From the NCBI GenBank assembly GCA_027449585.1, contig DAIDLJ010000006.1, forward strand, positions 1 through 37,616: a DNA stretch of 37,616 bases, read 5' to 3'. The translations under genes and the position numbers were made by a program. The stretch's first letter is position 1; every line of letters begins with the position of its first letter. Shown here in pieces: positions 2,691 through 33,653 of this stretch. Source of the stretch: Microcaldota archaeon (GTDB lineage: Archaea > Micrarchaeota > Micrarchaeia > Micrarchaeales > CABMGC01). The notes beneath the pieces were generated by a model. The model ran no database searches, was not told the origin of the DNA, and was given only the letters and a program-made list of their open reading frames with translations.

Positions 2691-3314
2691 TTACTTCGCC
2701 TTCATCTCCACTTTGGCTTCGAAATCGGAGATCTTGTAGTTGAATTCCTCATTTGTCTTTATTAAACCTTTCTCTTTGAGGAACTCTCGGGCGAGAAGGA
2801 AGTATACAAGGGCAAGAGACCTTCTTCCCTTGTTGTTGCACGGGACCACAAGGTCAACGAACTTTATCCAGTTATCGGTATCGCATAGGGCGACCACAGG
2901 TATGCTGGTGGTGCTGGCTTCCTTTACCGCTTGGCGCTCGTTTCTTGTGTCGCTCAAGAGCACTATGCCAGGCTCTATGAAGTCTTCCCTATTGGGGTTT
3001 GTGAATATGCCAGGCACGACCCTTCCAGTTATTAGCCTAGATTTGGTTATCTCGGCAAACTTTGAGGCGGAAGCTATTGCATAGATTCTTGAGGCTGTTA
3101 CCACTATGTCCTTTGGATCGTACTGGGCGAGAAGCCTTGCCGCCTCCTTTATCTTCTTGTCTATGGTGCTAAGCTCAAGCAGGTAGAGGCCGTCCTCCCT
3201 TATCTTGTAGATGAATCGCTTCATCCCCGGCGTCTTTATCTTAGTGCCTATGTGTATTCCTGCCTCTAGGTACGTTGCCTGATCCGTCAACAGTTCGTTT
3301 GCCATTTTAAACAC
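2691..3314 (-). CDS. rps2: 30S ribosomal protein S2 (uS2)
   Basis: YLEAGIHIGTKIKTPGMKRFIYKIREDGLYLLE..., PGIFTNPNREDFIEP, ALCDTDNWIKFVDLVVPCNNKGRRSLALVYFLLARE. Confidence 0.96.
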   Translation of the reverse strand: MFKMANELLTDQATYLEAGIHIGTKIKTPGMKRFIYKIREDGLYLLELSTIDKKIKEAARLLAQYDPKDIVVTASRIYAIASASKFAEITKSRLITGRVVPGIFTNPNREDFIEPGIVLLSDTRNERQAVKEASTTSIPVVALCDTDNWIKFVDLVVPCNNKGRRSLALVYFLLAREFLKEKGLIKTNEEFNYKISDFEAKVEMKAK

Positions 3315-3319
3315 CGATT

Positions 3320-3414
3320 CGGGGTCGCCGAGACTTTCATGGGCGCGAGCCCATTTTGAACTCGGGTCGTATGCTCCCTAAGCACACAGCCTTACCAAGC
3401 TAGCAGACGACCCC
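3320..3414 (-). tRNA. tRNA-Pro (anticodon reads AGG) with a 21-nt intron in the T-loop (3334..3354)
   Basis: Acceptor GGGGTCG/CGACCCC; anticodon arm GC-TTAGGGA-GC with Pro-type GGG-A; T stem CCGAG/CTCGG; splicing at the BHB restores TTCAAAT. Confidence 0.85.
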
Positions 3415-3456
3415 TCGTCTCCTATATTGAACGCTATTTCTTTTTAATGCTTGCGA

Positions 3457-3657
3457 TTACTTCCTGCTATAGTTTATTATGTCATCTATAAGCTCAACGT
3501 GGCTTATGAGCATACGCCTGCAGCAGTACCTCTTTACCTCTAATGAATCGAGGACCTTGTCTGCATTCTCCTTCTTCACGTTGACTCTTTCGTTGAACTC
3601 CTGCCATTTGTCGCCTACGACCTGCCCGCATGAGAAACAACGCACTGGTATCATCAT
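3457..3657 (-). CDS. rpoN: DNA-directed RNA polymerase subunit N (Rpb10)
   Basis: [17 protein letters not shown]...[20 protein letters not shown] zinc-binding family signature. Confidence 0.97.
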
Positions 3658-14722: not shown

Positions 14723-14878
14723 AGCACAAGCTTTCCAGATATAAAAAGAGACTTGGTTGAAAGCTTGGGGTATTAGGCAGGGCGCTATTGCATTAAGCCC
14801 CATTTTTCACTAAATTTTCAACACGTAATTTCAGTTTTTGTTAATTTTAGATGGCGACTCACGTAATGGTTTTTGTTT

Positions 14879-14937
14879 GCTCCCACCGGGATTTGAACCC
14901 GAGTTGCAGGGTTGAAAGCCCCGCGTCCTTGGCCGAG
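14879..14937 (-). repeat. Displaced tRNA-Glu 3' fragment (distal att site)
   Basis: gctcccaccgggatttgaacccgagttgcagggttgaaagccccgcgtccttggccgag; 2 mismatches to the intact tRNA; no D-arm/acceptor 5' half beyond it. Confidence 0.9.
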
Positions 14938-17045: not shown

Positions 17046-17300
17046 TCAAGCGTGGTGGTCGTAGTCCACTATCGTAACCGTGCTGTTCTTATCATCTATC
17101 ACGTACTTGACCACGAAATGTCCGATATGCCTTTCCCTGACTCCGGCATACTCGCTGTGCATCCATTTGCCTACTGCATATGGGTTCTCCGCAAGCTGGT
17201 CGAAGAGCTTTACAAGCCTCTTGTAGGCCAAAGAGTCCTTCTTTACCATCTTCCTGAGCTTTTCCCTTACGCTATCTGCTAGATGCACTTCGTAGGCCAT
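17046..17300 (-). CDS. RelE/ParE-family toxin
   Basis: YEVHLADSVREKLRKMVKKDSLAYKRLVKLFDQLAENPYAVGKWMHSEYAGVRERHIGHFVVKYVIDD. Confidence 0.85.
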   Translation of the reverse strand: MAYEVHLADSVREKLRKMVKKDSLAYKRLVKLFDQLAENPYAVGKWMHSEYAGVRERHIGHFVVKYVIDDKNSTVTIVDYDHHA

Positions 17301-17532: not shown

Positions 17533-18432
17533 TTATTTAAGGCTTGTTATCCAATTTTTGAGCTTTTCGGCTTTCTCCACCGAAAACGCCTCGTCCACCG
17601 CTTTGTATAGCTCATCTTTCCGCGTGTTTATGTAGGTCATAGTTGTGCTAGGATCGCTATGTCTTGCGAATCTGCTTGACAGCACCACATTCCCGTTGCT
17701 CTGGCGTGCGAAGCTGGTTATTGCATAGTGCCTCAGACTGTGCGTAGTCAGCCTGTGCAGCCGCCTAGGCGTCCTTCCGTATGACTCCTCGCTCTGGTCG
17801 TAGACTTCGTCCAGCTTTGCCGCTCGGACATACTCCCTGAACACCTTACGCACATAGTTCTTCTCAAGGAACGGCTCGCCTCTTAGGCTGTGCCCAAGCT
17901 CCGCGAAGAACACGAACCCGCCAGCTTGCGTGATCGCTTTTTCGTTCCTGTTTATGAACTCAACAGTTTGCCGAAAAAGCGGCACTGGGATAAGCATTGT
18001 ATCAATTACGTGCACCTTCTCCGTCTTCACGGTCAGCTCACGTGTCTCGAACTTTATGTCTTTCACGTTCACTTTGACAGCCTCGCCTATCCTGAGTCCA
18101 AGCTGCGCTTGATACCCAAACAACAGGCGAAACTTGTCGTTCTCTATTGCCTTGAAGAAGGCCTGCACCTCCTGTTCTGTGAAGCCCTTGTTCAGGCTTC
18201 CATATTTAGGCGGTGCGTTGCCTCTGAAACGTTTCTTTTTGATGCGGTAGATTACGGACAGGACGTCCTTGATCTCATGGAAAGTTAGTTGCGGAAGCAC
18301 CTCCTGAATGTGCTTCTTAAGTTTTTCGGGTTCGGTCTCCGTGATGGAACCGAACCGTTTGCTGCTTAATTTCTTTGCATTGGCTAGGGAACTGAACCCG
18401 AGTTTGTCGTCGAAAATCTGATTGGCTCCCAC
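17533..18432 (-). CDS. int: Tyrosine recombinase / integrase (GTG start inside tRNA-Glu 3' end)
   Basis: AQLGLRIGEAVKVNVKDI (catalytic R), THSLRHYAITSFARQ (HxxR), RHSDPSTTMTYINTR (catalytic Y). Confidence 0.93.
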   Translation of the reverse strand: MGANQIFDDKLGFSSLANAKKLSSKRFGSITETEPEKLKKHIQEVLPQLTFHEIKDVLSVIYRIKKKRFRGNAPPKYGSLNKGFTEQEVQAFFKAIENDKFRLLFGYQAQLGLRIGEAVKVNVKDIKFETRELTVKTEKVHVIDTMLIPVPLFRQTVEFINRNEKAITQAGGFVFFAELGHSLRGEPFLEKNYVRKVFREYVRAAKLDEVYDQSEESYGRTPRRLHRLTTHSLRHYAITSFARQSNGNVVLSSRFARHSDPSTTMTYINTRKDELYKAVDEAFSVEKAEKLKNWITSLK

Positions 18433-18498
18433 CGGGATTTGAACCCGGGTTGCGGGGTTGAAAGCCCCGCGTCCTTGGCCGAGCTAGACGATAGGAGC
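18424..18498 (-). tRNA. tRNA-Glu(TTC)
   Basis: Acceptor GCTCCTA/TGGGAGC, anticodon loop CTTTCAA, T arm CCGGG-TTCAAAT-CCCGG. Confidence 0.95.
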
Positions 18499-21006: not shown

Positions 21007-22173
21007 TTATGGTTGCATCCAGTCTATCTCGTAATACTCGTTCTCGCTTCCCTTGAGCCTTATCTGTTTTACATGGTAATATGTAACAGCAGTCTCTCTG
21101 TCGGTTATTGCAAGTATTAGATCCAGCTTCATTTCCCGCGCGGCATTTATCGCAGAGGCGAATTCGCTTCCGCCTATATACTCCTCTTCGCTCAGGGACA
21201 GCATGGCATATTTGGGCTGCTCTGTTTCTGGGCTGTCTGCATCTCCGCCGTGCCTGTGGTAGAGGACATAGTCTATCTGCGTCTTCCTGCTCTTCGTAGC
21301 CCCTGGGACTGCAAGTATGAATGTCTTTCTCACTGAATGCGCGACCCTTATTACGCGCGCCCATTCGGAGATGAGAAGCTTGGATTCCTTTGGAAAAACA
21401 TGTATTACGTGCTTAGAATGCGTCCATGAAGAGCCGTCGCTCTGCATCGGCCTTGCTCCTGGGAAGTAGACCCTGAAATGCGTTCCGAACTTGAAGCCGG
21501 TCTTTATCACATACCCGCGAAGCCGCCAATCGGAGTATACGCCATAGAGCTTCTCGAAATCATTCCTTCTTGAAACCGCGAGCCTTAGTGCCTCTTTGTC
21601 AGTTGTGTTCTGCAATGAGAGTATGCCTTCCGAGGCCAGAAAGAGCGTCTCATATATGTCTAGTTTGTTGAGCTTGCCGCGGTCCGAGGCCTTGTAGGAG
21701 CCAAACTGGCCGAACCAGAGCTCGTCGTAGATCCGCCTGCCATTTTCTGCATCGTCGACTATTGTCATAAGCTCCGACTTGAAGAACGTTCCTGAAAGCT
21801 TCATGTCAGGCAGCCTAAGCTGCTGGACAGGATACTCTTTGGGCTGGGCCTGCTGCCTGCCTGCGTGCTTGAATGGATCCTTTATTACAAGTCCGCGATC
21901 GCGCCAGTCCTTATAGGTGAAATATCTTGCAGCGAACTTATCCTTCTTCCAGAATCTTGATGCGAGTTTGTTGAACGACACCTCTTCACCGGCCAAAGAG
22001 CACGTCGCGTTCCTAACGTCAATAAGATATAGCGCCTCTTCGGCGGAGAGTTCGATGCGCTGCTTCGAGTAACTGCCGAAATGGCCTTTCCTGAGAAGGT
22101 CGATGCTGGACTGGTCGGCGACTGTCAGGCGGCCTTTGCTTTGCAAGATCTGTATCATAGTATAATTGCTCAT
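21007..22173 (-). CDS. endA: tRNA-splicing endonuclease EndA, long form resembling the ARMAN three-unit (epsilon2) type
   Basis: VYSDWRLRGYVIKTGFKFGTHFRVYFPG...WTHSKHVIHVF...HSVRKTFILAV: Tyr/His/Lys catalytic positions; repeated N-terminal unit (YFTYKDWRDRGLVIKD) and extra C-terminal unit; 388 aa. Confidence 0.88.
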   Translation of the reverse strand: MSNYTMIQILQSKGRLTVADQSSIDLLRKGHFGSYSKQRIELSAEEALYLIDVRNATCSLAGEEVSFNKLASRFWKKDKFAARYFTYKDWRDRGLVIKDPFKHAGRQQAQPKEYPVQQLRLPDMKLSGTFFKSELMTIVDDAENGRRIYDELWFGQFGSYKASDRGKLNKLDIYETLFLASEGILSLQNTTDKEALRLAVSRRNDFEKLYGVYSDWRLRGYVIKTGFKFGTHFRVYFPGARPMQSDGSSWTHSKHVIHVFPKESKLLISEWARVIRVAHSVRKTFILAVPGATKSRKTQIDYVLYHRHGGDADSPETEQPKYAMLSLSEEEYIGGSEFASAINAAREMKLDLILAITDRETAVTYYHVKQIRLKGSENEYYEIDWMQP

Positions 22174-33578: not shown

Positions 33579-33653
33579 TAGCGAGGGAAGGATTTGAACC
33601 TCCGATCTCCGGGTTATGAGCCCGGCGGGCACTCCAGGCTACCCTACCTCGCT
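33579..33653 (-). tRNA. Initiator tRNA-Met(CAT)
   Basis: Acceptor AGCGAGG/CCTCGCT, discriminator A, anticodon stem GCCGGGCTCATAACCCGG with initiator-type GGG/CCC pairs. Confidence 0.94.

Follow-up and report, generated by a model that had tools for sequence, protein, structure and literature searches.

Can a tRNA-like stretch of archaeal DNA that common tRNA finders pass over, and that is interrupted in its T-loop and carries an anticodon beginning with adenosine, be a working gene? The question is raised by a locus in the window, by which is meant the whole 37,616 nt stretch of DNA analysed here, contig C6 of a source genome of 851 kb that is about 87% complete. The host is an acid-loving archaeon of the Micrarchaeota, and its nearest named relatives among the genomes compared are Micrarchaeota MAGs. 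From comparison of the sequences, it is very probable that the locus holds a functional tRNA-Pro(AGG) with a bulge-helix-bulge intron at position 59/60 that would be removed by EndA, that this is the sole tRNA found for the codons CCU and CCC, and that the change of G34 to A is ancestral.

The gene, rpsB and the other features discussed are listed in Table 1. The tRNA begins with G1 at 3414 and ends with the discriminator G73 at 3320. On the minus strand it reads GGGGTCG TC TGCT AGCTTGGTAA GGCT G TGTGC TTAGGGA GCATA CGAC CCGAG TTCAAA/ATGGGCTCGCGCCCATGAAAG/T CTCGG CGACCCC G, with the slashes marking the ends of the intron. It was missed by ARAGORN, even with introns allowed, and likewise by the Rfam tRNA model, although both detect the four further tRNAs that the window contains. 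In the 5′ flank, the A+T-rich stretch ATTAAAAAG, judged by inspection alone, is the probable promoter. A short frame upstream of the tRNA was read by eye as a putative RNA polymerase subunit N. The long frame that follows rpsB contains two similar C-terminal stretches that look Hint/intein-like by eye.

Table 1. Features of the window and of other contigs referred to in the text.
Feature	Position	Strand	Details
Pre-tRNA-Pro(AGG) gene	3414..3320	minus	95 nt; 5′ end at 3414; CCA not encoded
Anticodon AGG (A34)	3377..3379	minus	within loop TTAGGGA
Intron ATGGGCTCGCGCCCATGAAAG	3354..3334	minus	21 nt; in the T-loop, between A59 and T60 (59/60)
5′ flank of tRNA-Pro	3420..3470	minus	contains A+T-rich, TATA-box-like stretch ATTAAAAAG, kept in position in nearest relatives
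rpsB (ribosomal protein S2)	2691..3314	minus	Pfam Ribosomal_S2, 7.5e-21; directly downstream of tRNA-Pro; synteny anchor
583-aa frame	939-2690	minus	long Ser-Thr and Ala-Ala-Thr-Asn repeats; no Pfam match
Partial 3′ copy of tRNA-Glu	14878-14933	minus	about 3.5 kb from intact tRNA-Glu(TTC)
ParE-like toxin of a toxin-antitoxin pair	17049-17300	minus	PF05016, 3.8e-06; inside presumed integrated element
Phage-type integrase gene	17533-18432	minus	PF00589; overlaps end of intact tRNA-Glu
Intact tRNA-Glu(TTC)	18424-18498	minus	
EndA, epsilon-type three-unit tRNA splicing endonuclease	21007..22173	minus	Pfam tRNA_int_endo, 2.3e-31
tRNA-Leu(CAA), L036	G000:C8:16887-16985		T-loop insert
tRNA-Leu(TAA), L037	G000:C8:29570-29651	minus	D-loop insert of about 20 nt; missed by ARAGORN
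tRNA-Met(CAU), L240	G005:C1:253055-253226		initiator-like; 16-nt T-loop intron at 59/60

The first-pass annotation had described a T-loop intron in tRNA-Pro with a canonical bulge-helix-bulge, and the sequence, place, helices and bulges that it quoted are all borne out. The T-stem (CCGAG:CTCGG), a central helix of 4 bp (TTCA:TGAA) and an intron stem of 5 bp (TGGGC:GCCCA) are present, and the central helix is flanked by two 3 nt bulges on opposite strands, AA/A and AG/T, which corresponds to the strict form (hBHBh′). Cutting in silico after the second nucleotide of each bulge gives a normal tRNA, and ARAGORN calls the spliced 74-mer tRNA-Pro(AGG). The T-loop so restored, TTCAAAT, had been said to be the same in the four other tRNAs of the window, and this holds for tRNA-Glu, tRNA-Gly and tRNA-Met, the three whose sequences were read.

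When 2,000,000 random 21 nt inserts were placed at 59/60 in a simulation, 629 gave a 4 bp central helix together with an intron stem of 4 bp or more, a chance of about 3 in 10,000 that takes no account of the intact cloverleaf around the insert or of conservation in other species. For the isolated hairpin, the predicted minimum (−17.4 kcal/mol) contains a 6 × 6 internal loop, and the bulge-helix-bulge form (−15.6 kcal/mol) lies about 1.8 kcal/mol above it, with a predicted pairing probability for the central helix of about 0.07. The bulge-helix-bulge form is within 3 kcal/mol of the predicted minimum in 28 of 40 orthologs.

EndA had been named as the cutting enzyme, and the protein encoded in the window supports this. 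It aligns with the ARMAN-2 enzyme (4fz2/9w2k) at 488.8 bits, over residues 9-388 in the case of 4fz2, which is near full length. The residues at the positions of Y236, H251 and K282, the catalytic Tyr-His-Lys, and of R275 are conserved, as are those at Y160 and K161 of the ARMAN-specific loop (numbering and roles from PMC12397907), in keeping with the epsilon type. ARMAN-2 EndA cleaves bulge-helix-bulge and relaxed introns alike (PMC12397907), and among the 165 genomes of the order, EndA was found in 157. The window's EndA is the likely cutter of the tRNA-Pro intron. In the pathway envisaged, T54-A57 of the pre-tRNA would pair with TGAA of the intron, and the epsilon EndA of ARMAN type, whose gene lies at a distance of 18 kb, would cut each 3 nt bulge between its second and third nucleotides. 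A ligase would then join the exons to give the TTCAAAT T-loop, both of these steps being proposed by homology.

The position of tRNA-Pro upstream of rpsB is kept across the order Micrarchaeales, represented here by the family of the source genome (f1) and a sister family (f2), most of the genomes being MAGs. The rpsB-upstream regions of f1 and f2 relatives gave 70 loci, 63 of which were parsed by one pattern, the seven non-matching loci being left out. Forty of the parsed loci carry only the 59/60 intron, 19 have both a 53/54 and a 59/60 intron, three (L069, L093 and L102) have only the 53/54 intron and one (L105) has none, giving totals of 59 loci with the 59/60 intron and 22 with the 53/54 intron. 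T-loop introns had been described in the first-pass annotation as rare, a generalisation that does not fit Micrarchaeales, where one or two introns interrupt the T-arm of this gene in 62 of the 63 parsed loci. Its cut sites fared better: splicing in silico gives a T-loop of 7 nt in all 63 (TTCAAAT, or TTCGAAT in L102), and the intron-less ortholog agrees.

The 55 distinct 59/60 introns range from 11 to 32 nt and are variable in sequence, and the central helix is paired at 4/4 positions in 54 of them. Co-variation is seen in the intron stem: at its first three pairs, 107 of 123 combinations are complementary, whereas shuffling gives a mean of 57.6 (sd 5.5, maximum 78, 5,000 shuffles); the shuffles do not preserve relatedness, so this is not a strict probability, and several pair types occur per position. 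The central helix cannot co-vary within tRNA-Pro because the T-loop is invariant. A matched change is visible by eye in the tRNA-Met(CAU) gene of the related genome G005 (L240), where TCCA of the T-loop stands opposite TGGA, compared with TTCA opposite TGAA in tRNA-Pro. On these comparisons, the tRNA-Pro gene is judged to be real and evolutionarily conserved.

The anticodon is odder than the intron and was overlooked in the first-pass annotation; it is the novel part of the finding. A34 tRNA genes have been stated to be absent in archaea and, elsewhere in the same paper, to be extremely rare (PMC11066159), and one methanogen A34 tRNA-Arg has been treated as a transferred exception (PMC8450103). 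A pattern running from the D-arm through the anticodon detected the AGG version in 71 of 79 f1 genomes and in none of 86 f2 genomes. One of the eight f1 genomes without a match, G058, carries an AGG gene with an altered D-arm (L078). The corresponding pattern with GGG matched 65 of the 86 f2 genomes, two class outgroups (f20) and one fragmentary f1 genome, G103, which bears AGG and GGG together and for which contamination is a possible source. The f1 and f2 genes are orthologous, since they share synteny and introns, and G34 therefore most likely turned into A34 in place; the outgroups suggest that the substitution occurred in the ancestor of f1.

A second tRNA-Pro for CCU/CCC was sought across f1 and, apart from that of the fragmentary G103, none was found. 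The proline tRNAs found in the single-contig f1 genome G005 are TGG, CGG and AGG only. The first-pass interpretation would have been undermined by a further AGG gene lacking the intron, but none was found; the remaining proline tRNAs found in the source genome have the anticodons TGG and CGG, although at a completeness of about 87% that genome may hold a second one that escaped notice. Mature tRNA-Pro(AGG) would be the only tRNA found in the lineage that is dedicated to CCU/CCC, with its unmodified A34 probably reading CCU as well as CCC.

Alternatively, a deaminase that is divergent or has gone unrecognised might convert A34 to inosine, and the tRNA would then act as an I34 species like eukaryotic tRNA-Pro(IGG). 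A34 tRNAs elsewhere are mostly I34 (PMC11066159), and PF14437 or PF00383 proteins do occur in some members of f1, such as G005, where a deaminase-family protein bears the motif HSE...PCLMC. Against this, searches with PF14437 and PF00383 found no conserved TadA/ADAT-like deaminase in f1. PF14437 (TadA-like) is present in just 15 of 49 f1 genomes and had no match in the source genome at its completeness of about 87%. PF00383 matched in 6 of the 13 f1 genomes searched; the seven without a match include G001 (97% complete), which has no PF14437 match either. The single PF00383 protein of the source genome, with the motif CAE...PCGSC, appears from that motif to be a cytidine deaminase rather than TadA. 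Conversion to I34 is, on this evidence, a tentative possibility and an unlikely one.

Unmodified A34 is the simpler reading, because the two deaminase families are patchy and G001 has neither. In E. coli, an AGG tRNA lacking modification reportedly reads CCU about as well as CCC (PMC11066159). Codon usage in the A34 family is not shifted for CCU relative to the G34 family (Mann-Whitney p = 0.38), which fits reading of CCU/CCC by unmodified A34 yet is no evidence for it. With moderate confidence, the whole f1 family may be taken to decode proline CCU/CCC by an A34 tRNA that truly stays unmodified, is passed on vertically and became fixed when G34 changed to A in place; if true, this makes f1 an exception to the published view of archaeal A34 tRNA genes. 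The A34 anticodon contradicts the statements that such tRNAs are lacking in archaea, and the family is a naturally occurring archaeal case in which decoding by an A34 tRNA can be studied where no deaminase is recognised.

The window also carries an integrase gene and a tRNA-Glu fragment (Table 1), which together are the mark of a presumed integrated element with tRNA-Glu as its attachment site. A similar tRNA-Glu fragment occurs in G005 (L237). The tRNA-Pro insert could conceivably be retained mainly to shield the T-arm from tRNA-targeting integrases or RNases, and not as a neutral passenger. Disrupted tRNA genes have been tied to blocked viral integration (PMC4033280), an integrase adjoins tRNA-Glu in the same genome, with the partial tRNA-Glu copy nearby, and 62 of 63 loci retain T-arm introns despite drift in their sequences. 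However, the TGG and CGG proline tRNAs of the source genome, like most of its listed tRNAs, have no T-arm intron, and such a protective role is considered quite improbable.

Scarcely credible is the view that the locus is a pseudogene in decay, or that the tRNA stays unspliced with an enlarged T-arm: apart from the failure of ARAGORN and Rfam to recognise the gene, which would suit it, it was rejected on comparative evidence, since the cloverleaf stems, the tRNA position and a splice-restored T-loop are retained in 63 parsed loci of two families, the insert varies in length and sequence from locus to locus while compensatory changes keep its pairing, ARAGORN calls tRNA-Pro in 63 of 63 orthologs when spliced and in 3 of 63 when unspliced, and the single-contig G005 has no other CCU/CCC tRNA-Pro among those found.

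Other tRNAs show inserts of several kinds. The tRNA-Leu(CAA) gene L036 of the source genome (G000) and its G005 equivalent L236 have a T-loop insert of 13-14 nt that looks like a relaxed rather than a strict bulge-helix-bulge (4 bp helix, 5 nt 3′ side), and the D-loop of a tRNA-Leu(TAA) gene is also interrupted (Table 1). The window's counterpart of the G005 tRNA-Met gene, at 33579-33653, is intron-less. The source genome has several further tRNA introns of the 37/38 type. The intron-bearing tRNAs L021, L032 and L033 are named Ser by ARAGORN; by eye they resemble Ile(TAT) and Met(CAT), interrupted at 37/38, an error of naming by the tool.

The A34 gene may have been overlooked in part because its T-arm introns conceal it from search tools, ARAGORN and Rfam among them. 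Surveys of tRNAs with common tools can miss intron-bearing genes of this kind, which is a warning for their interpretation. The orthologous gene, with 59/60 only, 53/54 only, both or neither across dozens of species, also provides a series for the study of intron gain, loss and retention.

T-loop introns in archaeal tRNAs were already known (PMC6379350), and noncanonical introns have also been reviewed (PMC12397907). Among the closest known systems is that of ARMAN-2 (Ca. Micrarchaeum acidiphilum), the best studied member, represented here by G014; the EndA of G014 shows 100% identity to the 4fz2 chain used as query, which makes G014 either ARMAN-2 itself or a genome almost indistinguishable from it. 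The tRNA-Pro of G014 (L088) shares with the window gene the rpsB neighbour, the 59/60 intron, the bulge-helix-bulge rule and the type of EndA, but has introns at both 53/54 and 59/60 and the anticodon GGG, whereas the window gene has only the 59/60 intron and AGG. Since the ARMAN-2 ortholog has both introns and the window EndA is of the ARMAN-2 type, the intron adds a further case to a type already known. Thermoproteales supply the best-known noncanonical archaeal introns, whereas in the present case a single gene holds T-arm introns across a whole order of ultra-small archaea. The permuted tRNAs of Thermofilum pendens (PMC3218864) have a 59/60 T-loop junction processed via a bulge-helix-bulge, as in the window, but in a permuted gene, whereas the window tRNA-Pro has the ordinary gene order. 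The A34 (I34) tRNAs of bacteria and eukaryotes share with the window tRNA-Pro the adenosine at the first anticodon position; the difference is that the f1 A34 tRNA is vertically inherited in an archaeal family, where no conserved TadA-like deaminase was found, although such tRNAs are stated to be absent or extremely rare in archaea.
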